Assembly: GCA_027475525.1 (NCBI GenBank) | Contig: JAMWFC010000132.1 | Span: forward strand, 791,074-855,073 | Origin: Macrolepiota albuminosa | Lineage: Eukaryota; Basidiomycota; Agaricomycetes; Agaricales; Agaricaceae | Length of the DNA stretch: 64,000 nt | Reading direction: 5' to 3' | Shown here: positions 4,715-51,794 of the stretch, piece after piece | Numbering within the stretch: the stretch's first letter is position 1 | How the letters are laid out: each line of letters starts with the position of its first letter | The notes under the pieces: model-generated | Database searches by the model: none | Told to the model about the DNA's origin: nothing | Seen by the model: the letters and a program-made list of their open reading frames with translations, nothing else | Position numbers and translations under genes: made by a program

Positions 4715-4745
4715 TTTAATGAGGTCTAATAGTGTGTTTTTATAC

Positions 4746-5651
4746 AGGTCCATTTTTGCTCTACATATACACTGTACTGACTTGTAGTAAGTGTTTGTAG
4801 TACAATGGAATATTGATAAATTGATATTTTATATTATATGCAAGAGGTGGGTTCAACTCCTGCTAGTGCACATTATATAATAGCAGCAGGCCATTGACAT
4901 CTGCTAGCATTATGAATTTGATCCATTAAAAACTCCAGAGATTTCTGCAGAGGGATAGAATAGACACATTTGTATATGTGATCAGTTGATGACATGCTGA
5001 GGCTGGCTTCCTTTGTGCTGGTCTTTGTGACAAAAATAGCCAGCCCTGACATATCATTACTTGTCATGTGTGCTGCGATAAACACACATGCAAGTTCTTG
5101 CATTCTATCTCTTTTTAGTAAATTCTAGAGTTTTGAATAAATCAACTTAAATGATGCTAGTAGACGGTTCTGTGTAAAAATGACAAATATTTTAATAGGG
5201 CCTGTAAGCCCCAATAAAATATCCATTCATCACTTGCTAGCATCATTAAGTTGATCTGTTCAAAACTCTAGAAATTACTGAAGAAGGATAGGATAGAGGA
5301 GTTTGCGTGTGTAGTTATTGCAGTGCACATGATAAGTAACGATGCACCAGGGCTGGCTATCTTTTTTACTAAGACCAGCACAAAGGTAGCTAGCCACAGT
5401 GCATCATCAACTTGTCACATGCGCAAATGTGTCCAAGTCTATCCCTCTGCAGAAATTTCTGGAGTTTTGAACAAATCAAATTCATGATGCTAGCAGACAT
5501 CAATGGCCTGCTGCTATTATATAATGTGCACTAGCAAGAGTCAAACCTGCCTCTTGCATACAATATGACATATCAATCTATCAATATTCCATTGTACTAC
5601 AGACACTTACTACAAGTCAGTATGGTGTTCATGTAGTGCACAAATGGACCT
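4746..5651. repeat. Large imperfect inverted repeat (foldback or two tail-to-tail SINE copies)
   Basis: The left arm (about 4746-5160) is repeated in inverted form at about 5237-5651, with scattered substitutions. The outer ends are AGGTCCATTT and AAATGGACCT. Each arm has, near its outer end, a tRNA-like head (4791-4872 plus strand; mirror at about 5515-5595 minus strand) with box B GGGTTCAACTCCTGC in the left copy. The roughly 75-bp centre is partly palindromic. It carries no coding capacity. Either two SINE copies inserted tail-to-tail or a single foldback element fits. Confidence 0.6.
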
Positions 5652-5840
5652 ATATAGAATTTAAACAGATAGTGTTATCAATTTTTACTTGTAGTAAATT
5701 GACAGAGGGCAGAAGAGGTCTGCTGGAGTGGTATCCTGTACATAGACGGATCAAAGAATTTACTGCAACTAGTGTATCTGTATTGAATTGACAATATTAG
5801 ACTAATATTTATTTACATCATAGCAGTATTTGATAAGCAT

Positions 5841-9639: not shown

Positions 9640-10130
9640 TGATAGGACCCCATACAGGATCAGTGCATCAACGGCAGGCGACAGCAACGCGGCACCGACT
9701 CGGGATACCTTAGCGCACGCTAATTATCCAATTTTGGCGATATTTGATGGTTGCGCACGGCAAGAAGCAGATCCGATGAGTGATAGCACCAATGGCAGAC
9801 AGAATGACAACTGACAGATGGCATCAGTCACTGACGACAGCGCTTAGCGAGAAGCTTGATGATCTATCAAAAACTGACGGACAGCTTGGCATTTGACCTT
9901 GGCATCTGACATCGCTTAGCGCCTTGATTTGGCGCCTGACATCGCTTAGCTTTTTGGACAGATAGAAGGGTGATGGATTGATGGTTTAGCACCGCGATCT
10001 GCCGCCTGGCGCCGCTAAGGGTCTTGAATGGACGGCAGAGATCTGAAACCGTTGGAGCTACCCCTATAAAATTTTCTAGTTTACCGCACTTTGGTGTCAT
10101 TAGTCACTGGCGACGGTGAACTCATTGTAG

Positions 10131-10138
10131 TATAAAAG
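10131..10138 (+). promoter_or_regulatory. TATA box of LTR1
   Basis: TATAAAAG, conserved at the same place in LTR2 (20408-20415) and LTR3 (29434-29440). Likely drives the genomic RNA of the F1 element. Confidence 0.6.
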
Positions 10139-10319
10139 CACTTACCGACTTGTACATAGAGATAATTGAACAATAGACCAGAGTTTCCTGCTCCCCTTTC
10201 TTCAGTCTCCCTTATGCTCGAGATCTCATTTATGGCCGGCAACGTTGAACTCATCGGCAGTTGCAGACGCTTGCCAACACTTGACACACTCACGCCTTGC
10301 AACTACGGCAGGCATTATC

Positions 10320-10341
10320 AATGCTTAGACTTCGCTAAGCA
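10320..10341. promoter_or_regulatory. Conserved LTR hairpin
   Basis: ATGCTTAG, a 6-nt loop, then CTAAGCAT gives a perfect 8-bp stem downstream of the TATA box, so it would lie in the 5' end of the transcript. It is kept in LTR2 (about 20597-20618) and shortened to 6 bp in LTR3 (around 29615). Role unknown. Confidence 0.45.
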
Positions 10342-10577
10342 TACCGTGCTCTTGCTGCTCACATTGCCATGTCACTTACCGCTTCTTTCATAGGCGCTTT
10401 ACCTTAGCGCTTTACACTTGCCGACCCCCTTACCGACTTTTCTCCATTTTCACAGGCGCGTTCTCTGGGACCTGCCTGGGACTCCTCACATCACTTATAG
10501 CGTGCCCAACGCAAGCTTTTGGTACGGTAACACTATAGTTATATTTGTTACTGACCAAACTGTGGGCGTCATCAAAT

Positions 10578-10957: not shown

Positions 10958-12418
10958 ATGGAACAACAAGTTCAGCGTATGCCTCCACATAACCACTTCT
11001 CAGCACCAAAATGGGACGAGTCCAAGCCACAGGAGCTCTCCCAGTATTTCAAGAAATTAGAGTATTTATTCAGAGATTGTAACATTACCGACCACACACA
11101 GATGAAGGAGTACACGGCAAGATACGTATCATATGACACAGCAGAGACGTGGACAGGTTTGACCGAATTTGCCGTCTTTGTTCCTGCTGCCCCACCTGTT
11201 CCAGCCCAAGGCGCTTCGTATGAGAACTGGAAGACGGCAGTAATCCGGTTGTACCCTGGCGCAGAAGAGGCTACCCGATACACGGTAAACGAGTTGCAGA
11301 AATTAGTTCAGGAATCATTTGACAATGGCACTTCCTTGCTTGGCGCGTTCTCTACATATTACCGTGAGTTTCAGAAAATTGCTAGGTGGCTTCTGCAGAA
11401 CGGCAAGCTATACATTAACGAGGAACGTCGCCTATTCCAACAAGGCATCCCAACTTCGCTTTGGACTCGTATTGCTCGTCGCCTAGAGATAGTTCATCAG
11501 GCCCATCACCCGGACGAGCTCTATAATGTTGCCGACGTTTTTGAAGCCGGTAAGTGGGTTCTCAAGGGGATGGACACTGGCATTGGGCTGCAGCGTGCTA
11601 GGACGAGCCCACCACCTGAGCAAACTAACGGTATCATTCCCATCCCACCTCCTGCTGCCGACTTCGTTAAGAAGGAGGATCTCAGTGCTGCCGTTACCGC
11701 TGCCGTTGCATCTGCTATGACTCGTATCGAAACTATGATTACCACCAACCTGACTGCTAACCGACCCGCTAATGTACCCACGTCTGGCCCTTGCCACTTC
11801 TGTGGGGAAATTGGTCACACTATGACTAGAGGATGCTGCATTACTCTCAAAAATTACATTTGGCAAGGAAGGATTCGAAGGGCTATCGACGGCAAGATAG
11901 TTCTTACCACTGGCAATACTATCCCCAACTACCCAAACAAGAAGTACTTCCAGGAACGAGTTGATGAATGGCATAGGCACAACCCAGGACAAATCATTAC
12001 CGGCACGCTTTCTGGCAACGCCAACCCCGACCCTGAACAGGTGACCCAACAGCAAATGATCCACGAGGTCTTACACTTCGACAGCATTGGCAACCGCCCT
12101 ACTTTCTTGCGGGAAGAGCGTATCGCCAAGCTACAACAGGAGCTGGATTTGCTTAAGAATCAGGTTTTTGATGGGGTTGAAGTTAAGCAGCCTAAGCAGC
12201 CTCTTAAAGGATATAAGCCAATGCCTCCCGCTAGCAAGTTACCGACTCCTACTCCTGCCACTCCGCCAGCTACCACACCAGAACCATCGTTGTCCTCTGC
12301 CGCTCCCGAACCGCCTTTGTTGCCTCTCCATCACTACTCAGGGATTCCCGACCATTATCACGCTCCCACACAACGAAATTTTGCTGCTCCCGAGAAGCAT
12401 CCTGAAGGTGGTTACTGA
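10958..12418 (+). CDS. gag: Gag polyprotein (F1 body 1)
   Basis: Capsid/nucleocapsid precursor of the F1 Gypsy element, 486 aa. It starts at the first ATG after the primer site; the reading frame is also open upstream from 10604, without an ATG. A retrotransposon gag-type helical region lies in the first ~250 residues. A zinc knuckle CHFCGEIGHTMTRGC sits at about residues 280-295, with one extra residue before the last cysteine relative to the usual C-x2-C-x4-H-x4-C. A proline-rich tail follows. The ORF ends at TGA (12416-12418) where the sister copy at 22694 has CGA and reads through into protease. The stop is therefore a decay mutation, and the ancestral product is a Gag-protease fusion. 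Confidence 0.85.
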   Translation: MEQQVQRMPPHNHFSAPKWDESKPQELSQYFKKLEYLFRDCNITDHTQMKEYTARYVSYDTAETWTGLTEFAVFVPAAPPVPAQGASYENWKTAVIRLYPGAEEATRYTVNELQKLVQESFDNGTSLLGAFSTYYREFQKIARWLLQNGKLYINEERRLFQQGIPTSLWTRIARRLEIVHQAHHPDELYNVADVFEAGKWVLKGMDTGIGLQRARTSPPPEQTNGIIPIPPPAADFVKKEDLSAAVTAAVASAMTRIETMITTNLTANRPANVPTSGPCHFCGEIGHTMTRGCCITLKNYIWQGRIRRAIDGKIVLTTGNTIPNYPNKKYFQERVDEWHRHNPGQIITGTLSGNANPDPEQVTQQQMIHEVLHFDSIGNRPTFLREERIAKLQQELDLLKNQVFDGVEVKQPKQPLKGYKPMPPASKLPTPTPATPPATTPEPSLSSAAPEPPLLPLHHYSGIPDHYHAPTQRNFAAPEKHPEGGY

Positions 12419-13168
12419 CCTACCGTGCCAATTTTTGACATCGAAAAATCAAACCACGTCTTTAGCTGCATTATGAAAACCGCCGTCACCTTGTCAGTTG
12501 AAGAACTTTGTAGTATTGCTCCTGACATCCGCAACCAAGTCAAGACCGCTGTTACTCCTCGACGTCTCTTGGTGACAACCGTTGCCGAGGTTGAGGACCT
12601 CGACAATGCGCTACCCGGTTTTTCTGTTACCGTCGACTCACTGGATACTGAAGACTCTTCTGCCGACCCCATTGCTAACGCCACCTCTGTGGACCCAGTG
12701 AAGACCTATCTTAGGTCAGTAGAACATGGAGAAGACCTGGCAATCCTTACTGTCGCTCAAGAATCACACGCTATCCGCTCAGTCACACTAACGGTCGACA
12801 ATAAGCATGAGGTAGAGGCGATTGTGGATAGCGGGTCTCAAATCATTTCTATGGCAGCCAAAGTCGCTAACAATTTAGGCCTCATTTATGACCCAACTGT
12901 GATACTAAACATGCAGAGCGCTAACGGTACGGTGGACAGATCCCTAGGTCTCGCCAAGAATGTGCCCTGCACCATTGGCGACATTACTTTTTACCTTCAA
13001 ATACATATTTTGCGCTCCCCAGCATACGACCTACTACTTGGCAGACCCTTCAACATCTTGGCGCGATCAGTCGTCAAGACAGTTACCGACGACAAAACGA
13101 CTTTAACAATTAGTGACCCAAATTCCAGAATCCAACAAACGGTGCCCACGTTCCCTAGAGGACAATGA
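12419..13168 (+). CDS. pro: Aspartic protease (F1 body 1)
   Basis: Retropepsin region that matures the polyprotein. The catalytic motif is IVDSGSQI (residues about 135-142 of the 12425 ORF), followed about 85 residues later by YDLLLGRPF, the usual second conserved retropepsin element. It is continuous with Gag in body 2 and separated here only by the TGA at 12416. It ends at a TGA (13166-13168) that is also present in body 2, so that stop predates the split or is functional. Confidence 0.8.
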   Translation, partial: PTVPIFDIEKSNHVFSCIMKTAVTLSVEELCSIAPDIRNQVKTAVTPRRLLVTTVAEVEDLDNALPGFSVTVDSLDTEDSSADPIANATSVDPVKTYLRSVEHGEDLAILTVAQESHAIRSVTLTVDNKHEVEAIVDSGSQIISMAAKVANNLGLIYDPTVILNMQSANGTVDRSLGLAKNVPCTIGDITFYLQIHILRSPAYDLLLGRPFNILARSVVKTVTDDKTTLTISDPNSRIQQTVPTFPRGQ

Positions 13169-13218
13169 AAAGGTGCCCACGTTAAGCCCCCGGAATTTAC
13201 CGACCAACACGCCAATGA

Positions 13219-14818
13219 GCCTTTCCACCAGTGTTTTCACAGACCATTGAGGAGGTGATTGGCGACAATCACGGAGATGTGGCGCTAACACTGGAATATG
13301 ACCATTCAACTGGTCTTGTAAATGTTATGTTTACTGCTGTTCTTGACGAAGACGTTTTAACTACTCTATCCATTACCGACGCTGAGCTTTCCCAGAAAAA
13401 CCCAAATATTACCGACTCCGCTCTAGCATACTTATACCTTACCGCGTCCGAATCTTTTCAGAATATTGCGTCTACCGATACTTATCTCACTACTCTTCCC
13501 GGAGCCTTGTCTCCTGCCGTTCTTGGACTTGCCGCCTCTCAGGCTACAGTTCCCCTTTCCACCTCTGTATATAACCAAGCTAACGCTCCCAAAAGGAAAG
13601 AGGTTCAAGTCAAAAAGAAATATAAGCCAGTTGCACTTAAAACAAAACCCATCGCCACGCACTCTCCTGAGACATTTAGAATCGAGCGCCAGATCATTGG
13701 CGACCCTCTTGCTGACCTGCCGACCTTATCACCAAATCTGCTGCTGCGGAACGCCAACAGCAGTTGGCCAAGGAGCACAACACAGGATTTTTGACCAAAG
13801 ATGAGTTGAATGTCCTTACCGATCTCTTTGCAAGCAAGATAAAGCATTCGCCTGGGAGGACTCAGAATGCGGCAGCCTGCAAACAGACTTCTTCCCGCCC
13901 ATTGTAATCCCGACCATCCCTCACGTGCCGTGGACTGAGCACAACCGACTGTTACCGCCTGGGATCGAAGCCGAGGTCTGCCAAATCATTAGGACCAAGA
14001 TTAAGGCTGGCATCTACGAACCCTCCAATAGCTCTTACTGCTCCCAATGGTTTTGCGTCCTCAAAAAGAACGGCAATCTACGCATAGTCCACAGTCTCGA
14101 ACCGCTGAATAGAGTTACCATACGACACTCTGGAGTACTGCCTTTTCCTGACCACATTGCCAAGTCCTTTGCCGGGCGCATTTGTGGTGCCACCCTTGAT
14201 CTCTACGTTGGCTATGACAAACGCCTAATACACCCTTCTTCCTGGGATCTCACCACTTTTCAAACTCCGTTTGGCGCCTTGTGCCTAGTCACCTTACCGA
14301 TGGGCTGGACAAACTCGGTCTCTATATTTCATGACGACATCACCTTCATCCTCCAGCCCGAGATACCACATAATGTTCTAAGCTTTATTGATGACGTTGG
14401 CATTAAAGGCCCCAAAGACTGGCAACTCGTAAACGGCTTACCAGCGACCCATCTCAACAATCCCAATATTCGCTTAGCGCTATGGGACTTTTTTCAGCTG
14501 CTTAATCAAGTTCTCCAACGTATGAAGTATAGTGGTGGGACTTTTAGCGGTCACAAACTCCTCCTTTGCGCACCAAGATTTAAAATACTTGGTCACATCT
14601 GCACTCCCGACGGACGCGTTCCCAACAAGTCTCGCTTAGCACTCTTGGAGCGATGGGGCCCTTGCCATGATTTATCTGAAGTTCACGCCTTTCTTGGTAC
14701 CGTTGGTGTTCTCAGGATATTCGTCAAGAATTTTGCCCATCGTGCACACGCCCTTAACCGACTCACCCACGCCAACGAGCCCTTCGAATTTGGGCCAGAC
14801 CAGGTCACTGCACAATGA
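13219..14818 (+). pseudogene. Reverse transcriptase (F1 body 1), frame-broken
   Basis: The RT is recognised from KKNGNLRIVHSLEPLN, the LVTLPMGWTNS box, and FIDD within LSFIDDVGIKGP as the catalytic YxDD box, here starting with F. The pol frame opens at 13219, 51 nt after the protease stop and in another frame. Against body 2, a deletion of about 29 bp near 13741 and a 1-bp loss near 13830 break the frame; the RT core then reads open from 13925. It ends at TGA 14816-14818, where body 2 has CGA. Confidence 0.8.
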
Positions 14819-15562
14819 GACTTAGTAAAAGCCCTACAAGACACCAAGCCTCTAGTCCCCATCGATTATACTTCTGCCGACCCTGTTATCTTGGTGGTGG
14901 ATACCTCGTACATTGCCATTGGCTACTTCTTGTGCCAGTGCCTTAGCGACAATCGGAAACAGCAATGCTACAATCGCTTTGGGTCTATCACGCTAAACGA
15001 CCAGGAATCTCGCTACAGTCAGCCTAAGCTAGAGCTCTATGGACTCTTCAAAGCCTTTCGGTCGCTAAAGATGTATTTGATTGGTGTGCGGAATCTTATT
15101 GTTGAAGTCGACGCTAGGTACATCAAAGGCATGCTGCAGAATCCTGATATCCAGCCATCCGCTAGCATGAACCGGTGGGTAGTCGCTATCCTCATGTTTC
15201 ACTTTGAACTGGTCCACGTCAAGAGCTCTTTCCACGGACCAGATGGACTCTCTAGGCGACCCCGGCAACCTGGTGACCCGGCAGTAGATCCACAAGCTGA
15301 TAGCGATTTCGAGGACTGGGTCGACAGATTACATGGTTTTGTGCACCTTATACAACAGCCAATCCCCCTCCTACAACGGCAACAGCCTACTAGTATCCTT
15401 CTACATCCCATTGTCCCTTACCGCCCCAAGACCTTTAGCGCACCCCTCACATTCTACACGGCAAGCATTTTCAGTCAAAATTTGCCTCCTGTAAACGTTG
15501 TACAAGAGCCCCATCCGCTAAGGGAAGACAGCAGAAACCTAACCTACGATGCCGTTCCCTGA
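14819..15562 (+). pseudogene. RNase H region (F1 body 1)
   Basis: Degrades the RNA strand during reverse transcription. Ty3-type RNase H features are VVDTSYIAIGYFL (first acidic residue), YSQPKLELYGLFKA (E) and VEVDARYIKGML (D). The fragment ends at a TGA (15560-15562) replacing the CGA seen in body 2. It is one continuous frame between two decay stops. Confidence 0.75.
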
Positions 15563-16954
15563 TCCGCCAAGGCAAAGGCAGAAGACAGTCGTCTGTTAAT
15601 AGTTGAACAATGGATACAAGACCTCAAGCGACCCGCAGGCCTTACCGACAAGCAATACGTGACCTTTATCCGATACGCTACCTGTTTCTTCTTTACCAAT
15701 AACCGACTTTGGCGACGGAATTGAGATGGCGCTCACAAGCTGATCATCAAGCCAGAGAGTCGCTTACGAGTCCTGCGCGCTATGCATGATGAGCTAGGAC
15801 ATAGAGGTCTGTACGCTACCCAAGCCTCTCTTTTAGAATGATTCTGGTGGCCACACGCTAGTGCTGACATTGCCTGGTACATCAGGACTTGCCACCTCTG
15901 CCAAATTCAACAAGCGCGCCAAGTGCTCATCCCGCCAACCGTTGCAATGCCAGCTCCCCTCTTCAGCAAAATCTACGTCGACACCATGCATATGCCCAAA
16001 TCTGGTCACTACAAGTACATCATTCAAGGTCGTTGCTCGCTAATCCACTGGCCTGAATTTCGAATGCTTCAAAGAGAAAATACAGAGGCGGTCGCCAAGT
16101 GGCTCTTTGAGGACGTCATTTGCCGTTGGGGAGCGCTAAGAGAAATCGTCACGGATAACAGTGCGCCCATTATCAAAGCGCTAACCTATCTCGCCAAGAA
16201 ATACAATATCCATCACATTTGAGTATCTGGCTACAACAAACGTGCCAATGGCTTGGTAGAGAGACCACACTTTGACATTCGGCAAGCGCTCTTCAAGGCA
16301 GTCAATGGTGACGAGTCTCGTTGGAGTGAGGTGACATATTCAGTATTTTGGTCGGAAAGAGTTACCATTCATAAGCGCATGGGTTGTTCTCCCTATTACA
16401 CGGCTACTGGCACCCATCCGTTACTCCCTGCCGACATTATAGAAGCGACCTACCTTCAACCAGTGCCCAACAGCATCCTAGCGACTACCGACCTTATCGC
16501 CAGACGAGCCATTGATCTCCAACGAAGGAAAGAAGATTTAGAGCAACTTCACGAGGTAGTCTTTAGCGCCCGTCGCCAAGCAGCCCTACAATTTGAGACC
16601 GAGCATAGTGCGACTATCAGAGATTATAACTTCCTGAGGGGCGCGCTAGTGCTTATGCGCAACTCCAAAATTGAAACCTCATACAACAAGAAAATGTGCC
16701 TGCACTATTTGGGACCTTTGGTAGTCATCTCTTGTAACCGTGGAGGTGCTTATGTGCTCTGTGAATTAGATGGTTCAGTACTACATCGACCTGTTGCCGC
16801 TTTTCGCCTTTTGCCATATCTCGCCAGGGAACAAATTGACTTGCCACTTGAAGCGCTAGATATCGACACCGCCAAGCTTAGAGAACTTGAAGAAACAGAA
16901 TTATTGGACAATGATGATTTGCCGACTCTGGTTGAAGAAGAAGAAAATGACTAG
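15563..16954 (+). pseudogene. Integrase (F1 body 1), with nonsense mutations
   Basis: Inserts the cDNA into the genome. The zinc-binding HHCC domain is visible as MHDELGHRG and TCHLCQ. The DDE core is visible as YVDTMHM, VTDNSAP and NGLVERPHF. A GPLVV-type C-terminal motif is followed by a very acidic tail; there is no chromodomain. TGA stops at 15839-15841 and 16220-16222 stand where arginine is expected. This is the only F1 integrase in the window, since body 2 has deleted it. Confidence 0.8.
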
Positions 16955-17374
16955 AAAAGACTATATTGATAAGCTCCTTTTTCTATTACTTACCTTACTT
17001 ATCTTTCTTGCCGATACTTACTGTACTATATCCAACAGACAATTCTTTACATAGTCAAGTCGCAGTGCTAGCGTGTCGCCAATGCTTAGTGCACTGCGCA
17101 ACTCTCGCCAAGGGTTTTTCGCTATGATGATTTACTGAGCGTTTCTCTTTTTCCTCAAAATTTGTCTAAGTCCCTCACCTACAACTCCTCTTACTAAAAC
17201 CTACCTTAGAATACTTGCTGCTTGCTTTCTTTTTTTTTGCTTTCTTGGCTCTGTGCTAACTTAGACTATGGGACTTATCATTTCACTTCAAAGCGAGGCG
17301 GCGAAATAGATATAAAGGCGGTAACAAAAACAAAATAATATAAACATAAGCAGCCTATCTACGCTAAGGTCTGC
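16955..17374. other. Gap between convergent pol and accessory gene (F1 body 1)
   Basis: About 420 bp without a gene, between the end of integrase (plus) and the end of the accessory gene (minus). It probably holds the 3' end signals of the antisense gene. It is T-rich on the plus strand and conserved in body 2 (26116-26433). Confidence 0.5.
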
Positions 17375-19746
17375 TCAATCGCTATCGTCCTCCAGCAGCA
17401 GGGAACTATCCGATACCGGCAAAGAAGAGTCGTGCAGAGGTAGGAGGTCGCCTGGCAAGATGTTGTTGGCGGTCTGCCAATTCATGGCAGCTTGGCAGTC
17501 GTCCTGGTAGTCGCGAAGAACATGAAGGCTACGACCAAGGTTGGAGTAGCGCAACCTTAGCGCCATGAGCTGCCCTCGGACTCGTTCCCACTCCCAACTC
17601 ATTGTGGCCTCCATCGTTGCTGCCCGCCTCAAATACCGCTCCAACATCTCGCGAGGATTGAGCGCTATGACCAGGTAAACGAGGTCCTGCCCCAGCCACT
17701 GGAAAGCGTTGCCAGTGACCGTCGGCTCCAGCTGAGGGGTCCAGGCAGGATTAACCCTGGCAATTACGGGGTGCCTTGGTTCCAATCCGGCAACGTCCTC
17801 GGGATCAGAAACCTCCCAGGGGGCGACGTTACCGTAAGGCAGCAGCCACCGCCACTCAGGCTCCTCCTGGGCAACTCCTGCCGCTGCCTCCTCTCCTGCC
17901 GCTACCTCCCTTGCCGCTGTCTCCTTCTTGTCACCTTTGCGCTGGGTCGCCAAGGTCTCGTCTGGCTCCCCATCTGCGTCCTCGTCACCAGCCATTGCTG
18001 AGGGACTCCCTTCGCCCCTTGGTGTTGCCACCATTGGTGCCACCTCCTGAGGCTCTTCCCTTGACGGCAGGTCCATTACTGCGTCGTCCTCGTCAGCGGC
18101 CGGCAGAGAAGCCCCTCTCAGATGGATTGGGGAAAGCAACTTGCTGGGCCTGGCTTCAGTGTCTCTTGGCAGGAGGCGGCTGGCGGCAAGCGCCTTCTCC
18201 AGTTCCTCCATCTCCACGTCTCCGGGGATAGAGGGAGGAGACTCTACCTGTGCATGTTTGGCCTTGCCCTTCCCCTTAGCAGGCGAAGAGACTTGTCTTT
18301 TTGAAGGGACCGTAGTCCCTTGGCACTCACCGGCACCACGGTTGCCGACAGTTTTGTTTTTGTCCCCTTGACGCGTCGGCAGCGCCAGGGAACTCTTGCT
18401 GATTGCTGCCACGTCTCCAGCAGCCTTCTTCTTCTTCTCTCCCTCGACAAACTCTTGTGCTCTCTTGACCAAGACGGCACGCTTGAAGGTGCGTTCCACT
18501 ACCGTGTCGGGAGCTCCCCCGCATTCGTGACTCTTGGCGCCATCCAGAGTACAAGCTCATTTAAGGGTCCCACACCGATAGCAGGGCTGACCGCCAGTAG
18601 GGTACCAGCACCCCTCTGGGTCATTGTCAGCCCAGCATTTGTTGCACTAGTACCTAAGTTAGCAAGCACAGTAACAGAAAAGGTGCTAAGCTTACCACCC
18701 CCTGGAAATCCTTAAATTCTTGCCTTGCCACGAGCGCAACAGTCTTTTTGTTCTTCATCTTGGGCAAGACAACTCCTGCATCCATTCCCTCATCAAGGAC
18801 GGCGTCTTCCCGGCACGGCACCAGCAGACTCTTCAATTCAGAATCGGTAAAGATAGTCTGCGTTGGCGCCTGCAGACATAGGTTGGTAAACAGCACCTGG
18901 GTCTAAAAAGAACACTTACCGCATACTGGGGAGCCTTTCCCTTGCGAGACTTGGAAACAGTGGTTAGCGTGGCACGGCAGCGGCAAGAATAGGCAAAAAC
19001 TCACTTTCTTCAAAGCCTTACCCGGCTTTACTGAGGAGCCCTTCCTGCTAGCCGGCAGTGCTGGGCTCTGTGCACTGCCGGCATGCAAAACCTTGCTCTG
19101 TTCCTTGGCGACTGGCGCCCTCCCACGGTCGATCTCCTCCATCTCCTCCGCCAATGCCTGCACACGTGCCTGCTCTTCTAGCGCCCTCGTAATCTCCTTA
19201 GCATCACAAGAGGCAGCAGTAGAGAGTTCCTCCTCCACCTGCATCCGCGCCAAGGGTGCCAGCACCTTCTGTTTACTATGGGGCAACAAGTCAGACCAAA
19301 GCTAAGTCAAAAGAATGGGTTAGGAATACTTACTTAGGCGCAGGCGTGCTTACCGTCATCGGCAAGGCACCCGAAAGGATATCCTCCAATTCATCCTCAA
19401 TGGTGGGGACAGGAGGAGGCGCCTAGGGACCCAATCAGCTAGCGACATGGCAAGGACTTACAAAGCGAGAAAAAGGCGCTAACCAGTCGGCACCACGATT
19501 GTCAACATAGCGGGCTTGACACCACTCCCGCACCTCGATCTCCCTATCCCACCCTATGCCAAGAACGCGAACTTCATACCAGCATTTCAACAGCTTCATC
19601 ATGGCAACGATCAAGTTTGGAGGCGCCTCCACGCCCACACCCTCAATGCGCCTAATGAAATTGTTTGCCTTGTCGATATAGGTGGAGGCGGTGTCTTGAG
19701 CCTCGCGAGATGGTATGGGGGGCGGAGTTGGAACACGGAAAGACAT
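17375..19746 (-). CDS. Antisense accessory gene of F1 (copy A): six-cysteine cluster and coiled-coil protein
   Basis: Six exons: 19746-19462, 19422-19354, 19301-19005, 18949-18920, 18869-18696, 18646-17375. All introns are GT-AG and 39-54 nt long, and all exon lengths are multiples of three; the product is about 708 aa. The N-terminal domain contains EVREWCQARY. A Glu-rich helical middle follows. At the start of exon 6 six cysteines are spaced C-x2-C-x8-C-x8-C-x2-C-x6-C, similar to a Zn2Cys6 cluster. After that come a Lys/Ser-rich, possibly nuclear, segment and a C-terminal coiled coil with an acidic tail. A TGA at 18557-18559 sits inside the cluster, so this copy is probably dead. The ATG is about 170 bp from the 3' LTR, which may supply its promoter. 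Function unknown; a regulator or nucleic-acid binder is an inference. Confidence 0.75.
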
Positions 19747-19907
19747 TTTATTTAAAAATGAGCGCTAGGAAAAGATGGGGAGGAGAAACGAAGTCCACAC
19801 TCATACGCCAGGACTATAAACAAAATCTCAAGAATGCACAGACCACTTGGCACAAAAGCGGTAACGGTAGCCTTATTTGGTAACTGAGGACAGTCAATTT
19901 TTCAGTT

Positions 19908-19916
19908 GGGGGGAGA
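19908..19916 (+). other. Polypurine tract before LTR2
   Basis: GGGGGGAGA directly abuts the LTR start and is preceded by the conserved CAGTCAATTTTTCAGTT. It is the plus-strand primer site of F1 and recurs at 28856-28864. Confidence 0.75.
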
Positions 19917-20851
19917 TGATAGGACCCCATACAGGATCAGCGCATCAATGGCAGGTGACGGCAACGCAGCACCGACTCGGGATACCTTAGCGTGCGCTAA
20001 TTATCCAATTTTGGCAATATTTGACGGCCGCGCACAGCAAGAAGCAGATCCGATCAGTGATAGCGCCGATGGCAGACAGAATGACAACTGACAGATGGCA
20101 TCAGTCACTGACGACAGCGCTTAGCGAGAAGCTTGATGATCTATCAAAAACTGACGGACAGCTTGGCGTTTGACCTTGGCGTCCGACATCGCTTAGCGCC
20201 TTGATTTGGCGCCTGACATCGCTTAGCTTTTTGGACAGATAGAAGGGTGATGGATTGATGGTTTAGCACTACAATCTGCTGCCTGGCGCCGCTAAGGGTC
20301 TTGAATGGACGGCAGAGATCTGAAACCATTGGAGCTACCCCCATAAAATTTTCTAGTTTACCGCACTTTGACGTCATTAGTCACTGGCGACGGTGAACTC
20401 ATTGTAGTATAAAAGCACTTACCGACTTGTACATAGAGATAATTGAACAATAGACCAGAGTTTCCTGCTCCCCTTTCTTCAGTCTCCCTTACGCTCGAGA
20501 TCTCATTTATGGCTGGCAACGTCGAACTCATCGGCAGTTGCAGACGCTTGCCAACACTTGACACACTCGCACCTTGCAACTACGGCAGGCATTATCAATG
20601 CTTAGACTTTGCTAAGCATACCGTGCTCTTGCCGCTCACATTGCCATGTCACTTACCGCTTCTTTCATAGGCGCTTTACCTTAGCGCTTTACACTTGCCG
20701 ACCCCCTTACCGACTTTTCTCCATTTTCACAGGCGCGTTCTCTGGGACCTGCCCGGGACTCCTCACATCACTTATAGCATGCCCAACGCAAGCTATCAGT
20801 ACGGTAACACTATAACTATATTTGTTACTGACCAAACTTTGGGCGTCATCA
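19917..20851 (+). mobile_element. Gypsy family F1, middle LTR (LTR2)
   Basis: A 935-bp LTR of the same length as LTR1, and very similar to it. It serves as 3' LTR of body 1 (polypurine tract on the left) and 5' LTR of body 2 (primer site on the right). The TATA box is at 20408. Confidence 0.9.
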
Positions 20852-23496: not shown

Positions 23497-25142
23497 GCCT
23501 CCCCACCAGTGTTTTCACAGACCATCGAGGAGGTGATTGGCGACAATCATGGAGATGTGGCGCTAACGCTGGAATATGACCATTCTACTGGTCTTGTAAA
23601 TGTTGTGTCTACCGCTTTTCTTATCATGGAGATGTGGCGCTAACGCTGGAATATGACCATTCTACTGGTCTTGTAAATGTTGTGTCTACCGCTTTTCTTG
23701 ATGAAGACATTTTAACTACTTTATCCGCTACCGACGCTGAGCCTTCCCAGAAAAATCAAAACATTACTGACTCCTCTCTTGCCTACTTATACCTTACCGC
23801 TTCCGAGTCATTTCAAAATATTGCGTCTACCGATACATATCTCACTACCCTTCCCAGAGCATCATCTCCTGCCGTTCTCGGACTTGCCGCTCCTCAGGCT
23901 ACAGTTCCCCTTTCCACCTCTGTATATAACCAAGCTAACGCTCCCAAAAGGAAAGGGGTTCAAGTCAAAAAGAAATATAAGCCAGTTGCGCTTAAAACAA
24001 AATCTGTCGCTACGCACTCTCCCGAGACCTTTAGAATCGAGCACCAGATCATTGGCGACCCTCTTGTTGACATGCCAGCTTTATCACCGAATCTGCCACC
24101 CTTTCAGCCCACAGGACGTTTTACCGTGGAATGCCAACAACAATTCGCGAAGGAGCATGACACAGGGTTTTTGACCAAAGATGAGTTGAAAGTCCTTACC
24201 AATCTTGTCGCTAAGCAAGATAAAGCCTTCGCCTGGGAGGACTCAGAACGTGGCAGTCTACGTACAGATTTCTTCCCACCTGTTGTAATCCTGACCATTC
24301 CTCATGTGCCATGGACTGAGCACAACCGACTGTTACTGCCTGGAATTGAAGCCAAGGTCTGCCAAATCATTAGGACCAAGATTAAGGCTGGCATCTACAA
24401 ACCCCCCAATAGCTCTTACCGATCCTGGTGGTTTTGCGTCCTCAAAAAGAACGGCAATCTATGCATAGTTCATAGTCTCGAACCGCTGAATAGAGTTACC
24501 ATACGACACTCTGGCGTACCACCTTTTCCTGACCACGTTGCTGAGTCCTTTGCCAGGCATATTTGTGGCGCCACCCTTGACCTCTATGTTGGCTACGATG
24601 AATGCCTGATACACCCTTCTTCCCGGGATCTCACTACTTTTCAAACTCCGTTTGGTGCCTTGCACCTAGTCACTTTACCGATGGGCTGGACAAACTCAGT
24701 CCCTATATTTCATGATGACATCACTGTCATCCTCCAACCCGAGATACCGCATAATGTCCTTAGCTTCATTGATGACATTGGCGTCAAAGGCCCCAAAGAC
24801 TGGCAACTTGTAAACAGCTTACCAGCGACCCATCCCAACAACCCCAACATTCGCTTAGCGCTTTGGGAGTTTTTCCAGCTGCTTAACCGAGTTATTCAAC
24901 ATATGAAATATAGCGGTGGAACCTTTAGCGGCCACAAGCTCCTCCTTTGCACGCCAAGGTTCAAAATACTGGGTCACATCTGCACTCCCAATGGTCACGT
25001 TCCTGACAAATCTTGCTTAGCACTCCTGGAGCGATGGGGTCCTTGCCAAAACTTATCTGAAGTTCGTGCCTTTCTTGGTACTGTTGGTGTTCTTAGGATA
25101 TTCATCAAGAATTTTGCCCATCATGCACATGTCCTTAACTGA
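23497..25142 (+). pseudogene. Reverse transcriptase (F1 body 2)
   Basis: The frame is open from the equivalent of 13219, broken by the 77-bp duplication at 23546-23699, then open to 25142. The RT core is complete: KKNGNLCIVHSLEPLN, LVTLPMGWTNS, and the catalytic box as FIDD in LSFIDDIGVKGP. It ends at TGA 25140-25142, where body 1 has CGA (14758 region). If the 77-bp duplication is an assembly error, only the TGA separates RT from RNase H. Confidence 0.8.
23546..23699. repeat. Exact 77-bp tandem duplication
   Basis: 23546-23622 and 23623-23699 are identical. The duplication is absent from the parallel sequence of body 1 (13285-13345) and shifts the pol frame. Confidence 0.9.
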
Positions 25143-26105: not shown

Positions 26106-26433
26106 GATGGAGCTGCGCTAGCGTGTCACCAATGCTTAGCGCCCTGCACAACTCTCGCCAAGGGTTTTTTGCTATGATGATTTACTGAGCATTTCCCTTT
26201 TTCCTTAAAATTTGTCTAAGTCCCATACCTACTACTCCTCTTGCTAAAACTTATCTTAGAATACTTGCCGCTTGCTTTCTCTTTGCTTTACTTTCTTTGC
26301 TCTCTGCTGCTACGCTAACTCAGATTATGGGACTTATCCTTCTACTCGGCAAGAAGGCGGCAAGAAATGTATACATCTGTACGGGAACAAACAAAAATCT
26401 ATATACACAACGGCCTATCTACCCTAAGGTCCG
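26106..26433. other. Integrase deletion junction and 3' region (F1 body 2)
   Basis: Near 26110 the sequence jumps from the equivalent of about 15735 to that of about 17070 in body 1. About 1.34 kb with the whole integrase (HHCC, DDE core, C-terminus) is missing. The rest matches the pol-accessory gap of body 1. No gene. Confidence 0.8.
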
Positions 26434-28695
26434 TCAGTCTTCACGATCAGAGAGCGGCAAGGAGTCATCGAAGGGCAGGAGGTTGCCAACCTGAACATGA
26501 TTGAGGGCTTGCCACTCTAGCGCCTCGTTGCAGTCAGCTTGGTATTCCTCGAGGGTCTCCATGCTACGGGTCAAGTTGGAGTACCAGAGTTGCGAAGCCA
26601 TGATCTGTTACCGAACGCATTCATGCTCGCGACCCAATACCGCACGTACTCCCAGCCGCTCTATAACCTGAGGAGGGTACAGGGCCACCACAGGATAGAC
26701 CAAGTCCTCCCCCAGCCACTCGTAAGAGTCGCCAGTGACTCTTGGCTGAGGCTGGGGGGTCCACGATGAGGGCCCACTCGAGCTCATCCAGAGCTGCGTC
26801 GCTAAGTTGCCCTCACTTACCCAAGGGGTGGCAGGCTCCACCGTCGGCAACTCCTGTGACTTGCCAGGGGCATCGTGTAAAGTCTCCTCTGTCTCCCCTT
26901 TGGCATCCTCATTGCCGCCCTCTACCTCCTCACAAATTGGCAATCCTCCAGGTGTCTCCTCCTCCCTGGCTAACTTCTGCGTGCCAGTGGGCTCTCCCAT
27001 TACAACGTCACCTTCATCTCCTGGGGCGCCAACAGTCGAAACATCGAGTGGCGCGTTTTCAGGCAAGATGAGGGGGGACAGTAAGTGGCTGGCAGCAAGG
27101 GCTTCTCCAAGCTCCCTCATCTCCGTGTCCTCAGCAGTTGGAGAGGAGGGGGGCAACTCAATGCGTACTCGCTTGGCCTTACCCTTGCCCTTGCTTGGGG
27201 AGGAGGCCTTACGTTTTTCCTGGCGCTTGCCAGCACCATGCGTACTCGCTTGGCCTTACCCTTGCCCTTGCTTGGGGAGGAGGCCTTACGTTTTTCCTGG
27301 CGCTTGCCAGCACCGCGCTTTCCGACTGATTCCGATTCATCTCCTTGGTGCGTCGGTAGTGCCAAGGAGGACTTGCTGATCTTTGCCGCTCTCCCAGCGG
27401 CAACCTCCTTACGTTCCCCCTCCACAAACTCCCTAGCACGCTTAACCAAAACTGCATGGGAAAAGGTCCTCTCAACAACGATATCTGGCGCCCCTCTCCG
27501 CTCGCGACTCTTGGCGCCATCAATGGTACAGGCATGCTTGAGAGTGCCACATTGGTAGCAAGGTTGAGCACCAGTGGGGAACCAACAACTCTCAGGATTG
27601 TTGTCAGCCCAACATTTGTCACACTAAGATCAGTTAAGTGGAAGAAAGGTTATAAATAGTAGTTGCTTACCACTCCACACAAATCTTTAAACTCCTGGCA
27701 CGTCGCCAGGGAAACCGTGCGCTTATTCTTCATCTCGGGCAACTCCACTCCTCCCTCGATGCCCTCATCCATAACAACATCTTCCCGGCGCGGCAAGAGC
27801 AAACCCTTCAACTCCTTGTTGTCAAAAGTTGTCTGACTAGGGAGCTGGGAGAGAGTCAGTAGAAAGTCGGCAAAGAGTCACAATGGCATACCTCATATTG
27901 AGGACCCTTCCCCTTGCGAGACTAGCAAAAGTTACCATCGGTAAGAAGAAACGCCAATGACGGCAGACTCACTTTCTTCTTCAAAGCCTTGCCAGGCTTA
28001 GAAGGCGAACCCCCTGTGCTTGCCGGCAGTGTGGGGCTCTAAACACTGCTGGTGCGAGACCCCTTGCTGGAACCCTTGGCAACGGACTCCTTCTTCTGCT
28101 CCTTGGCAAGCTCTGCCCTTGCCACTGCCAAGAAATGCGCAGCAGCAGCAGCGGCAGCCTCCTCCTGTTCCTGCTCAATTTGCAATCGAGCAAGGGGCTC
28201 CAGTACCTCTTGCTTACTACGGGGAGATAGTTCAGTCCATAGCTAGAGAAGGAAAGGTCAGAAGCTACTTACTCAGTTGCCGATGCGCTTATGGTCATTG
28301 GCAACGTGCCAGAAAGAATGTCCTCCAGCTCATCTTCGATGGTGGGGACAGGGGGAGGCGCCTAGAGAGCAATCAGCTAAGCAACACGCCAGGCAGCAAA
28401 GACAACTTACAAAGCGAGAGAAGGGCGCTAACCACTTGGCACCATGATTATCGACATACTGGGCACGACACCACTCCCGCACCTTGATCTCGCAATCCCA
28501 GCCAACGCCAAGGACCCACACCTCATACCATCGCTCCAGTAACTTCATCACACCAACCACAAGATTTTGGGATGCCTCAGCACCAACGCCTTCGATATGA
28601 CGGATAAAGTGGTTGGCCTTGGCGATGTATGTGTAGGCAGCTTCTTGAGCAGCCTGAGAAGGCACGGGGGGCGGAGTTGGAATATGGAAGGACAT
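26434..28695 (-). CDS. Antisense accessory gene of F1 (copy B): six-cysteine cluster and coiled-coil protein
   Basis: Same gene as at 17375-19746, with the same exon plan; exon 1 is 285 nt in both (28695-28411) and the first donor is conserved. The cysteine cluster is complete (CDKCW...C...C, then PCYQC, then KHAC) with spacing x2-x8-x8-x2-x6. A GKGKAK-type basic stretch and an acidic region follow. A TAA near 26606 falls just before the final helix (MASQLWYSNL), and a 77-bp duplication at 27161-27314 disturbs the frame after the cluster. Located between pol and the 3' LTR on the opposite strand, as in body 1. Confidence 0.72.
27161..27314. repeat. Exact 77-bp tandem duplication
   Basis: 27161-27237 equals 27238-27314. 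It lies in exon 6 of the accessory gene and is absent from copy A. Confidence 0.9.
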
Positions 28696-28834: not shown

Positions 28835-28988
28835 AGGACAGTCAATTTTTCAGTTGGGGGGAGATGATAGGACCCCATACAGGATCAGCGCATCAACAGC
28901 AGGCTACGGCAAGGACAGTCAATTTTTCAGTTGGGGGGAGATGATAGGACCCCATACAGGATCAGCGCATCAACAGCAGGCTACGGCA
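28835..28988. repeat. Exact 77-bp tandem duplication across the polypurine tract and LTR3 start
   Basis: 28835-28911 equals 28912-28988. It duplicates the polypurine tract and the first bases of the LTR, so two TGATAGG starts appear (28865 and 28942). Confidence 0.9.
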
Positions 28989-29868
28989 ATGTGGCACAGG
29001 CTCAGGATACCTTAGCACGTGCTAACTAACTAATTTGGGCAATATTTGACGGCCACGCATGGCAAGAAGCAGATCCGATCAGTGATAGTGCCGACGGCAG
29101 ACAGAATGACAACTGACAGATGGCATCAGTCACTGACGACAGTGCTTAGGGAGAAGCCTGATGATCTATCAAAAACTGACAGACAGCTTGGTGTTTGACC
29201 TTGGCGTCTGACACCACTTAGCGTCTTGATCTGGCACCTGACATCGCTAAGCATTTTGAACAGACAGAAGGGTGATGGACTGATGGTTTAGCACTGTGAT
29301 CTGCCACCTGGTGTTGCTAAGGGTCTTGAATGGACGGTAGAGATCTGAAACCGTTGGAGCTACCCCTATGAAATTTTCCAGTTTACCACACTTTGGCAAT
29401 GGTTGGTCATTGGCGACGGTGAACTCATTGTAGTATAAAAGTACTTACCAACTTGTAAATTGAACAATAGACCAGAGTTTCTTGCTCCCCTTTCATCAGC
29501 CTCCCTTACGCTTGAGATCTCATTTACGGTCGGCAACGTTGAACTCATTAGCAGTTGCAGATGCTCGCTAACACTCGACACACTCACGCCTTGCAGCTAT
29601 GGCAGGCATTATCGACGCTTAGACCTCGCTAAGCTTACTGTGTTCTTGCTGCTAACATTGCCATGTTTGCTTACCGCTTCTTCATCGGCGCTTTACCTTA
29701 GCACTTTACACTTGCCGACCCCCTTACCGACTTTTCCTCATTTTCACAGGCGCGTTCTCTGGGACCTGCCCAGGACTCCTCACATCACTTATAGCGTGCC
29801 CAACGCAAGCTATTGGTATGGTAACACTATAACTATATTTGTTACTGACCAAACTTTGGATGTCATCA
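28942..29868 (+). mobile_element. Gypsy family F1, 3' LTR (LTR3)
   Basis: Third LTR of the array, about 927 bp, clearly more diverged from LTR1/LTR2 than they are from each other. It ends GTCATCA at 29868, where homology with the 3' ends of LTR1/LTR2 stops. The flank is ACATC, unlike the left flank of LTR1. Confidence 0.88.
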
Positions 29869-43755: not shown

Positions 43756-46180
43756 TTGCAGTTGGCAGGCTTCAAGTCAAGTAAGAGCTCAATGGCATGA
43801 TCCCACTGCTTGTGCTCCAGGAGAGAGTCAAATGAGGCCTTTGAAAAAACATCCTCAAAGTCTGCAGATGGCCCAGAACAGTATCCCAGAATGGGCAAGG
43901 CAAGGTATTGGTGGCAAAGGCCTGGGCCAACCATTGAAAAGTGGTCTGGCTGGCCCAGATCTCTTCAGCTGATGGTGGAGGGTGCAATGTTGTGGCATAA
44001 ATGTGGTCCCCTACCTTAATAGCCTTGTCTGGTAATTCTGGGTCCAGAGCAGGCAGGAATTCTCCTTCATGACCATCTTCTATGGTGGCTGCTCCACTAC
44101 CATGTCTGGTGTCCTCATAGAGGGCCTTTCTATAAGGGAACACCAGAGGCAAGGAGTTCAACAGGTCAAGGTCAGCAAAGAGAATGTGTCCTGCTCAGCG
44201 GGCCTGGATGGCTACACATTCCCACACAGCAGTGTGCTGCTCTGTCCTTGCCTCCTCAGCACAGGTGGTGCAGCACCGGGGACACCAGCTCATGCTCACC
44301 TCTCTAGTAGTCTAGTCTATCTCTGGATTGTGCTTCTGGAGCCATGTGTATCCCAGGATCATGTCCTGCTTTTCCAAGCTGGTAACCACAAAGGTAGCAT
44401 GCTTGACATGGGCCTGGTAGCACAAAACTAGGTAGCATAGAAGGAACCCACTTCATTGGGGGTACTGTCAATATTGTAGACCAGAATGGAGGAGAGAGAG
44501 AGGCCAAGTTGTGAATTGGTGTCTGGCCATGTGGTCACTATCCACAAAGAGCCCTGTTGCTCTGGAGTCCAGGAGAGTGACTATGCTCTGGGTCTGCTGG
44601 ATGTTAGTTGTCTCAACCTCCACCTTTAGCCAGAGCAAGTTGGCTGAGGGCATGGAGGCTACCACATAGTGTCTTGGGAGGTGACGTTGCTAAGCAGAAG
44701 TGTGGGGTCAAGGGGACACAGTAGAAGGAATCAGCAAGGCTGGGGGGGCTTTCAGATATGTTGGGGGGTGTGCTTACAATTGTAGGTGTCAAAGTGTCCA
44801 CAGGAGTTGTATTGGGCTCTTTTATAGATAGATATGCAAATTGATTTGCACTAAGCAGCAGGGGCATACTCTTTACCCATTACTCCTCTAAAAATCCTCC
44901 AGGCACCCTTCTCTCAGTGCATCTGCACTCTGCTCCAGCTCCAGGGTCTCTGGTGCCGCAATATCTAGAGAGGGTGCTCTGGCTGCATCCTTGACTGCCA
45001 GGAGCTGCAGGAGCAGCTCTTCCTGCTCCTCCAGGGCAACAGCATGCAAAGTGGCCAGAAGTGCCATAGCGCTAGCATTGGCACATTGGCAGGAGGAGTT
45101 CACATCCATAGGGGCCTTAGGAGGCAGTGTTGGCACTGCAGAGGAAGCAGTGAGGCTGGGAGGAGTGAACACAGCTGCTCTAGAGAAGGGGAAGGAGATT
45201 AGAGGGCGTGATGTTATTGCTGAGGCTGGAGCTTGTCACAGGCTGTGCTTGAGTTCCATGACCTGCCACTAGTCCTGGGCCATTCAGTACCAAGAGTCGA
45301 CTTGATTGTTGGCTGGGCATTCTTCTGCAAGATTATCAATGTGCTCCATCAAAGTTGATTGGAGCCTTTTCTGGAAGGTGAGGCAGAGTTGCAGGCCATC
45401 AGGATACCCAGCCTGCTCAACTAGTGCATGGAAGAAGTCAATGTATTTGTCCAACAAGTGCTTCCCTTGTCCATACTGGTTCTTGTCTCAGAGAACCAGC
45501 ACAGCTGTTTTGGCTGGGTTCCAGGAAAAGAACTTGTTTCAGAACTCCTGCTCAAATGTGGCTCACCTTGCAAACTCTGCGACTCCTCCAGGGCATTGGA
45601 AAACCCTCAGTGCATAGGTGGCTGCTCTTCCAGACTTCATATAGGAGAGAACCCATGCAATTTTCAGGTCATCAGAGACAAAGTCATCTCTGCAGAGCTG
45701 GGTATAGATGAGGCATGACTGTAGAAGTTGTTCTCCAGTCACATGGTTGCCATTGTAGGCATCTGAGATTGCCGGTTGGGGAATGAGCATGTGTGGGGCA
45801 CCTTGTGCTACTAAAGGATCTGGAGCGAGGAGCAGTTCTGCTGCTGGTGTTGCTGTAGCAACCAAGAGAGTGGGGTTTAGATGCTCTAGGAGGGCCTGGA
45901 GGGAGTCAGAAATGGTTTTGGTGGTTTGTCAGAGGGTGGAGAGTTTGGCAGTGTGGTGAGTGAGAAAAGCTTGAGTAAGCTGCACTTGGGCCTCCAGGTA
46001 GAGCAAGCAAGTCCAGGCTTCATCCTGAGGAGCTGTAGTGTCTGGAAGAGTGTTTGAAGAGGCAAGCTGAGACATAGAAGGCATAGGTGCTTAAGACTAG
46101 TGGAGAAGTGACAGATAAGAGCCAGAAAATTCTTTTGACAGCTATGAGGGGCTTCCAAACCAGAATCCTAAAACTTGTTC
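43728..46180 (-). pseudogene. Gypsy family F4 gag-protease (decayed, truncated)
   Basis: Minus strand, 5' to 3': a leader, gag (KIAWVLSYMKSGRAATYALR near 45650), a coiled Glu/Gln-rich stretch, and retropepsin VTLLDSRATGLFVDSD (the expected DSGAT is DSRAT here) near 44560. A pre-RT segment follows (PALDPELPDKAIKVGD, FEDVFSKASFDSL near 43870). The RT is missing; the element is cut at about 43745 by the KDZ 2 end. Its 5' LTR is the LTR-Y piece at 46194-46507. Confidence 0.7.
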
Positions 46181-46193
46181 TGCTGTAAAGGTG

Positions 46194-46507
46194 ACCTCCA
46201 GAGGTTGCAGCTAATCACACAACTAGCAGAGGGAAATCCAAAGTGTATTAGAGAAAGTAGAAATAATACAATCAATAACTAATTACCTGGCAAAGAGAAA
46301 TCCAAAGAGAACAAGTCTGAGGATTCCTCTGCTGTTGTGGTGCATCAATATAGGAGGTGGAAGGCATGGGAGCAACTGTACAGTATCCAACAGCTAGCTC
46401 TGGAAGGCCTGGAAAACTCCAGGGGCATGGGAAATGCTCCAGAGTTCTCCAGAGCTCCAGAAAAGGAGGCAGAAAAGAGACATTGAGGAGGAGTCCCCTG
46501 AGTCTCA
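46194..46507 (-). mobile_element. LTR-Y piece, 5' LTR of the F4 element
   Basis: On the plus strand it reads TGTAAAGGTGACCTCCAGAGG...GGAGTCCCCTGA, the reverse complement of the LTR-Y ends. The middle is shortened and diverged. Its orientation matches the minus-strand F4 gag. Confidence 0.6.
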
Positions 46508-46576
46508 GCAAGACTTACTGCAATCTCTCCCTGGTCTGCAACCAGTTCCTCAAGACTCAAAATTTTGCTCCACTCT

Positions 46577-47351: not shown

Positions 47352-47394
47352 AACCCCTGCCTTTGGCATTTTGCCTCTTTCACTAGTGGGCTAG

Positions 47395-47880: not shown

Positions 47881-48004
47881 ATGTTCCATCTGCAATAGTA
47901 GGTGGCCAGAGGTAGATCTTTAACATCTACCTTGTCAAGCTTGGCATCAGTTCTGGACACCTTGTCACACTTGTGCTAAACTTGGTGCACACGATTTATC
48001 CTTT
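47881..48004. other. Unassigned spacer
   Basis: Short stretch between the protease fragment and the F1-like LTR remnant. Nothing recognised. Confidence 0.3.
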
Positions 48005-50139: not shown

Positions 50140-50144
50140 CTTAG

Positions 50145-51690: not shown

Positions 51691-51794
51691 AGCTTTCAAC
51701 AGCAGGAGGCATTTCATTAACAATGGAGGAAGCAGGGGAATTGGGAGTCCTAGCAACAAAATTAAGAAAAGAGGACACATAAGGAAGATGCAAC

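Follow-up and report, generated by a model that had tools for sequence, protein, structure and literature searches.

The window, by which we mean the whole 64-kb stretch of DNA that was analysed, contains two Ty3/Gypsy elements with one LTR (LTR_B) common to both. The features referred to below are the following.

9640..10574, plus strand: LTR_A, the 5' LTR of element 1, 935 bp (sequence comparison)
10958..16954, plus strand: gag-pol region of element 1, split over several frames (Pfam matches to protease, reverse transcriptase, RNase H and integrase zinc-binding)
17349..17375, minus strand: conserved dyad or hairpin of 7 pairs with loop TTAGCGTAGATA, starting at the last base of the stop codon
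17375..19746, minus strand: predicted antisense gene (open frames and recurrence in other copies)
19462..19746, minus strand: exon 1, conserved N-terminal helical domain (gene model, AlphaFold)
19354..19422, minus strand: exon 2, form A; in form B it ends at 19334 (gene model)
19005..19301, minus strand: exon 3, form A; in form B it starts at 19275 (gene model)
18920..18949, minus strand: exon 4, 30 nt (gene model)
18696..18869, minus strand: exon 5 (gene model)
17375..18646, minus strand: exon 6, with the six-cysteine cluster, an acidic disordered part and a C-terminal coiled coil (gene model, AlphaFold)
19814..19820, minus strand: TATA-like box TTTATAG, predicted promoter of the antisense gene (recurrence across copies)
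19871..19880, minus strand: CCAAATAAGG, a word that we take to be CArG-like (recurrence across stretches)
19906..19916, plus strand: polypurine tract TTGGGGGGAGA (sequence)
19917..20851, plus strand: LTR_B, the 3' LTR of element 1, common to element 2, with 17 TTRSCG words
26434..28695 (about), minus strand: antisense gene copy of element 2, diverged and decayed (similarity to the gene of element 1)
28942..29868, plus strand: LTR_C of element 2 (sequence comparison)

Element 1 has the organization of a Ty3/Gypsy retrotransposon, with LTRs, a polypurine tract and the domain order protease, reverse transcriptase, RNase H, integrase; RNase H and integrase zinc-binding scored above the Pfam cut-off and RVT_1 below it. 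LTR_A and LTR_B are 95.6% identical, and 38 of their 41 differences are transitions. The CpG observed/expected ratio is 0.32 and 0.46 outside the elements versus 0.60-0.95 in element parts and, taken with these transitions, the contrast is consistent with CpG methylation and decay. Elsewhere in the window lie a second Gypsy pol, unrelated to the main family (60114-63799, minus strand; strong RT, RNase H and integrase matches; TTRSCG at 2.7 per kb, without the main-family density), and a fold-back element at 4738-5659, a large nested inverted repeat whose arms of 222 and 188 nt are 88% and 78% complementary.

The antisense gene is situated between the end of integrase (16954) on one side and the polypurine tract (19906-19916) on the other. 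It had been proposed as a six-exon gene on the minus strand, with short GT-AG introns, between integrase and the 3' LTR, and both its coordinates and its strand were right. In the window copy the introns measure 39, 52, 55, 50 and 49 nt, all of them GT-AG and in phase 0. The claim that the exons are in phase thus holds for all five introns, but the reading frame of the window copy is interrupted: a TGA in frame at 18557-18559 falls within the cysteine cluster, at amino acid 314, where other copies are open.

Copies were searched for in an assembly of 100.1 Mb and 129 contigs using exon-1 DNA, which gave at least 41 matches (40 of 424 candidates were scored). Besides the window's own copy 39 were fetched; 29 of these, retaining most of the region, were aligned with the window row (30 rows), while 10 were left out as rearranged, truncated or too diverged. 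Because they were chosen by similarity to the window gene, these copies over-represent its close relatives. A gene model was built for 26 of the 30 rows (L014, L015, L023 and L025 did not fit the patterns). Donors, branch-point-like words CTRAY, acceptors and the position of the stop recur in other copies, the length of exons 1, 2, 4 and 5 is constant in nearly all modelled rows, and introns are 39-59 nt long in 25 of the 26, the exception being L026, where the pattern gave introns of 33 and 46 nt and exon 4 is unusual. Nine modelled rows (L018, L020, L027, L031, L032, L044, L045, L046 and L047) are open for 679-720 amino acids up to the common stop, a shared position that uses TGA, TAG or TAA depending on the copy.

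Selection was evaluated over the 36 pairs formed by these nine open copies. The comparison across copies that had been proposed as a check gave dN/dS values (Nei-Gojobori) of 0.07-0.32, that is, purifying selection. Under a mutation-spectrum null, in which the same base changes are moved to random sites of equal base and CpG state, amino-acid changes were fewer than expected in 35 of the 36 pairs (z from -4.0 to -17.9), the remaining pair, with only 10 differences, having a z of -1.3. By segment, median dN/dS was 0.04 in the cysteine cluster (13 usable pairs), 0.06 in exon 1, 0.08 in the C-terminal coil and 0.13-0.18 in the linkers and the acidic part; the end of integrase has a median of 0.05. 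Coding on the sense strand of the same stretch was rejected, no long sense frame being kept across copies: in the nine rows examined the longest sense frames reach 106-249 amino acids, versus 391-430 for the antisense exon-6 frames. By all the sequence tests that we applied the antisense gene is real, and it is a protein-coding gene under purifying selection.

At the junction of exons 2 and 3 there are two donors and two acceptors, and the frame is kept by the combinations A-A (phase 0) and B-B (phase 2). The two optional segments are present in 29 of 30 and in 30 of 30 rows, some of their end positions being fixed by the search pattern itself. Their minor-base fractions, summed at codon positions 1, 2 and 3, are 0.31, 0.07 and 1.83 for one and 0.40, 0.27 and 1.47 for the other, and since both vary mainly at third codon positions, alternative splicing of exons 2 and 3 is likely. 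In two annotated Termitomyces proteins (P0005 and P0008, both gene predictions) the common part ends in the two matching ways.

Concerning the promoter, 29 of 30 rows contain GTTTATAGTCCTGG some 70 nt ahead of the ATG. A location-blind count found GTTTATAGYCCTGG in 45 of 49 stretches and CCAAATAAGG in 41 of 49; the TATA string is absent from the diverged copies L048 and L052. Expression from a bidirectional LTR had been suggested as the source of the antisense transcript. Because the conserved TATA-like box sits outside the LTR, between it and the gene and about 70 nt before the ATG, such a promoter is not needed and we discarded it as a necessary source; LTR-driven antisense transcription may be an extra one. 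At the other end of the gene, the dyad has a counterpart in element 2 (26398-26441, minus strand) and its outer pairs show compensating changes. Of its cells 95.9% pair, and this value, the covariation score and the double-change number exceed all 500 of 500 shuffles; four pairs have a double change (reached in 39 of 500 shuffles) and there are seven pair types (in 444 of 500). The dyad following the stop codon could be a hairpin in the RNA or a site for a protein.

The six-cysteine cluster and the coiled coil expected in the product were both recovered, the former in the sequence, with the spacing C-x2-C-x8-C-x8-C-x2-C-x6-C, and the latter as AlphaFold predictions. The model of P0001, made on 26 rows, has a mean pLDDT of 59.5; it is confident for the helical domain at the N terminus (residues about 8-112) and for two coiled coils (130-197, 541-603), and confidence is low elsewhere, cysteine cluster included. 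Gal4-type Zn2Cys6 factors have six cysteines, which bind two zinc ions, in two C-x2-C halves, with x6 after the second cysteine. Our protein resembles them in its six cysteines in two C-x2-C-containing halves, and CGG/CCG occurs in some variants of the motif described below; it differs in having x8 instead of x6 after the second cysteine and in having no Pfam match. The profile of the Zn2Cys6 zinc cluster (PF00172, presumably its Pfam accession) gave no match, and no Pfam family, that one included, scored above the cut-off for the antisense protein or its cysteine cluster; the cluster may bind zinc. Pfam likewise revealed no similarity to gag or capsid and no Transposase 28 domain (PF04195), the domain of plant TRP28. 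There was no NCBIfam match for the antisense proteins, no PDB sequence match for the full protein or the exon-6 profile and no Foldseek match to PDB at E <=0.001; viral contigs matched neither the antisense protein nor a piece of RT-RNase H. Two PDB matches to the cysteine region (E 0.13 and 1.3) were taken as chance. Among about 5.8 billion proteins 13 homologues were found, all hypothetical proteins of Termitomyces, with a search that requires shared 5-residue words and may miss distant relatives; Termitomyces or a close relative is accordingly the likely host of the element. Pol has 1702 relatives at E <=1e-30, the best 77% identical, and the organisms named among the best 120 of them include Meripilus and Mycena.

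The exon-6 acceptor followed by the first codons of the cysteine cluster occurs at 445 places (216 + 229) in the 100-Mb assembly, and the reversed control at 0. In the whole assembly the spliced exon 5/6 junction was found 0 times versus these 445 unspliced ones, and the spliced exon 1/2 junction 0 times versus 209. The proposal that introns on the antisense strand survive reverse transcription of the sense RNA is borne out by both counts, and the absence of spliced junctions agrees with passage through unspliced sense RNA.

Linkage to the element was examined in this genome at 45 loci carrying the antisense gene. The end of integrase is found on the opposite strand in 39 of 45 within the fetched stretch, and on neither strand in the other 6; an LTR is present in 43 of 45. 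The gene is therefore tied to a Gypsy element, as the original prediction supposed, and it has the features of an additional ORF, being antisense and 3' of integrase in family copies (39 of 45 loci). Six diverged loci chosen by hand have it antisense beside the same integrase in 6 of 6, with integrase pieces 80-95% identical and an antisense protein that, along most of its length, has only 36-56% identity (up to 89% in exon 1); two further loci that were picked proved to be members of the main family. The exon 1 donor and exon 6 acceptor of the diverged L048/L052 subfamily sit at the same place and in the same phase as those of the main family. By inspection, both of these copies seem to have an extra intron (L048:3000-3420, L052:3700-4060) in the stretch that is exon 6 elsewhere, the L048 stretch overlapping a 77-bp duplication.

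Synonymous divergence of the antisense gene is more than 1.5 times that of the integrase end in 31 of 36 pairs, which suggests that antisense modules have been exchanged between lineages. The antisense gene of L050 looks like a mosaic of two subfamilies. Five places on C14, C30 (two), C54 and C90 share the match score of L050, and all six are probably recent copies that hardly differ from one another; L050 itself has an open pol frame and an open antisense exon 6.

The word TTRSCG pervades the main family, at about 9-23 per kb in LTRs, gag, pol and antisense gene and on both strands. Against a second-order Markov null of each sequence itself, TTAGCG, TTGCCG, TTACCG and TTGGCG rank 1, 2, 5 and 6 of all 6-mers in pooled element pieces. 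The counts that follow are compared with this null, the motif being found and scored in the same sequences. The LTRs contain 21 versus 3.4 expected (SD 1.7) in L032 and 20 versus 3.2 in L050; pol contains 57 versus 10.2 in L050, 64 versus 11.2 in L049 and 53 versus 10.1 in the window; the window gag has 16 versus 2.6 and the antisense gene of L032 39 versus 8.9. Densities in the window are 11.9-18.2 per kb in LTRs, 9.0-11.7 in gag/pol and 8.7-8.9 in the two antisense genes, and 0.4-2.7 per kb (z 0.5-3.8) in five non-element stretches, of which 46000-56000 has z 3.8 though only 1.1 per kb. In pol the word is spread over more than one codon frame. All main-family segments that exceed the 170-bp gap in length have it on both strands, with 16 forward and 5 reverse in the L032 LTR and 34 and 23 in L050 pol. 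No clear rule was seen for the spacing of motif pairs.

Retention was evaluated in the 33 of 47 LTRs that aligned well. TTRSCG sites are kept in 0.74-0.79 of the other LTRs versus 0.48-0.63 for other NNNNCG hexamers (one-sided p 0.0001-0.0076 for six reference LTRs, which are not independent), and under a stricter control, hexamers starting with AT and without a second CpG, p was 0.0006-0.037 for six reference LTRs, again not independent. The L009 LTR, which has an interruption after about 160 bp, serves badly as a reference.

In L048/L052, whose LTR differs from that of the main family, TTRSCG is not enriched in the L048 LTR (1 versus 1.6) and hardly in that of L052 (4 versus 2.0), and the antisense genes reach z values of only 5.0 and 3.8. 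TAGCG, in turn, is found 20 times versus 6.8 expected in the LTR, 39 versus 17.3 in the pol end and 37 versus 13.6 in the gene, and TACCG 23 versus 12.4 in the pol end and 36 versus 9.8 in the gene; TGCCG is enriched in none of the three and TGGCG is at most weak (pol end 25 versus 15.9, z 2.5). In this comparison of two LTR/protein families, the diverged subfamily thus has a narrower motif, TASCG, together with a different cysteine cluster.

From the conserved cysteine cluster and coiled coils, the dispersed and retained word, and the word shift in the subfamily whose cluster is shifted too, we infer that the protein binds TTRSCG. Our preferred reading, to which we give slightly less than an even chance, is that of a multi-copy Ty3/Gypsy antisense gene under purifying selection whose cysteine-cluster protein binds TTRSCG and regulates its own element. 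The antisense transcript would start at the TATA-like box and be spliced, both steps being deduced; the spliced protein would dimerise via its coiled coils, and the dimer would recognise the CpG-containing TTRSCG words along its own element. It would then protect the activity of the LTR promoter from host silencing, acting like VANC proteins, self-repression being a less likely variant of the outcome. The introns would persist as the sense genomic RNA carries their complement and cannot splice. The fuller version, in which the protein is an alternatively spliced anti-silencing factor, its binding word is written into LTRs and coding regions, and subfamilies possess matching versions of protein and motif, is possible but distinctly less probable.

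Other readings have to be weighed against the binding of TTRSCG by a regulator of its own element. Enrichment of the word could be a compositional quirk of the lineage, the protein regulating something else, for example host genes as HBZ does. The comparison covers only two families and the CpG-depleted genome background exaggerates raw contrasts, but the enrichment holds against each sequence's own Markov null and the LTR sites are better kept than other CpG hexamers under the stricter control too; we consider this explanation doubtful, though it deserves attention. Ty1 p22 is a restriction factor for copy-number control, and cysteine-rich basic proteins of retroelements bind RNA. A protein that works inside the retroviral-like particle or on it, for example as RNA chaperone or p22-like restriction factor, with the motif as an RNA-level or packaging signal or unrelated, would agree with such RNA binding and with the somewhat commoner sense orientation of TTRSCG; the presence of the word on both strands in main-family segments longer than the 170-bp gap, and the lack of gag or capsid similarity in Pfam, make it unlikely.

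That the antisense transcript is mainly an RNA, lowering gag-pol expression through double-stranded RNA with its coding capacity incidental, appears improbable. Antisense control has been discussed for plant elements (PMC7264820, consulted in part), but dN/dS of 0.07-0.32, three different stop codons at one place, third-position variation in both alternative segments and sense frames of 106-249 versus antisense exon-6 frames of 391-430 amino acids speak against it. The suggestion of an antisense control RNA with coding capacity was therefore correct about the coding capacity, which codon-level selection supports; a mainly non-coding RNA fits that selection poorly and was disfavoured, and the transcript may have an additional RNA role. 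We give hardly any weight to an artefact or chance, be it what is left of a host gene or an illusion of gene finding: in its favour are the in-frame stop of the window copy, the broken state of many copies and the many exact 77-bp tandem duplications of the assembly, but element linkage at 45 loci, copy number and selection refute it. As for these exact or near-exact duplications, 61 were counted in 333 kb versus a single one for all other periods between 40 and 130. They occur in the window (23546-23699, 27161, 28835, 40141, 58354, 59720, 63035 and 63347) and in many fetched loci; element 1 contains none, L048 has some and the L052 LTR is without them. A k of 77 is a common assembler setting, and the duplications probably stem from assembly with k = 77, an artefact that mimics frame breaks and repeat structure in some copies.

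Antisense genes of this position have precedents. In fungi, the gene brtn, reportedly described by Zhao et al. in 2011, is said to be an additional antisense gene of Boty-like Gypsy elements in Botrytis cinerea; ours is likened to it by description only, as an additional antisense gene in a fungal Gypsy element. HBZ, an antisense gene of the infectious retrovirus HTLV-1, encodes a nuclear regulator of coiled-coil type, is spliced and starts in the 3' LTR. Our gene is likewise antisense and its product of coiled-coil type, whereas it has a TATA-like box outside the LTR and five introns. In plant Gypsy elements, according to the parts of the literature consulted, antisense ORFs (gene23 of Grande, RIRE2, TRP28 of Retand) lie between pol and the 3' LTR and are retained from copy to copy; gene23 is equipped with a promoter of its own and its product is nuclear, and TRP28 is predicted to bind DNA (PMC7264820, PMC11963269). 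Orientation, position and conservation are shared with our gene, which differs in its fungal host, its five introns, its six-cysteine cluster and the absence of a TRP28 or other Pfam match. The word "intron" is absent from the main text of those papers (PMC7264820, PMC11963269), and among the open-access papers that our literature searches listed, no title or abstract opening describes a fungal Gypsy element with an antisense gene that contains introns. In kind it is an antisense additional ORF, already known, from what these sources report, in plants (PMC7264820, PMC11963269) and in Boty of Botrytis.

The closest working analogue is VANC, the anti-silencing proteins of Arabidopsis VANDAL elements, which bind their motif and remove DNA methylation; no membership in that family is claimed. 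VANC21 binds YAGTATTAY, a motif that abounds in VANDAL21 and is found sporadically elsewhere, and the motifs of related VANDALs differ, as stated in the portions consulted (PMC5735166, PMC10398659). Similarly, our element encodes a protein and has a short degenerate motif dense in itself and rare elsewhere (in the window and fetched copies). TASCG without TGCCG in L048/L052 may be a motif difference of the VANDAL type, the comparison covering two families. VANDALs, unlike our element, are DNA transposons, and the VANC21 targets are, in the same portions, non-coding and same-oriented, whereas TTRSCG is also found in coding parts and on both strands.

Antisense genes of LTR retrotransposons are known, and their roles are mostly open. 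One family here offers several hundred natural copies, codon-level proof of coding, likely isoforms and a candidate binding word, so that the function of antisense accessory proteins is reduced to one binding assay, and its five introns show how a retroelement can keep introns on the antisense strand. If the word is bound, retrotransposon accessory genes would be linked to sequence-specific anti-silencing, so far described, in the portions of the literature compared, for Arabidopsis DNA transposons. The fuller version, if true, would extend self-recognition of the VANC type to a retrotransposon and to fungi.
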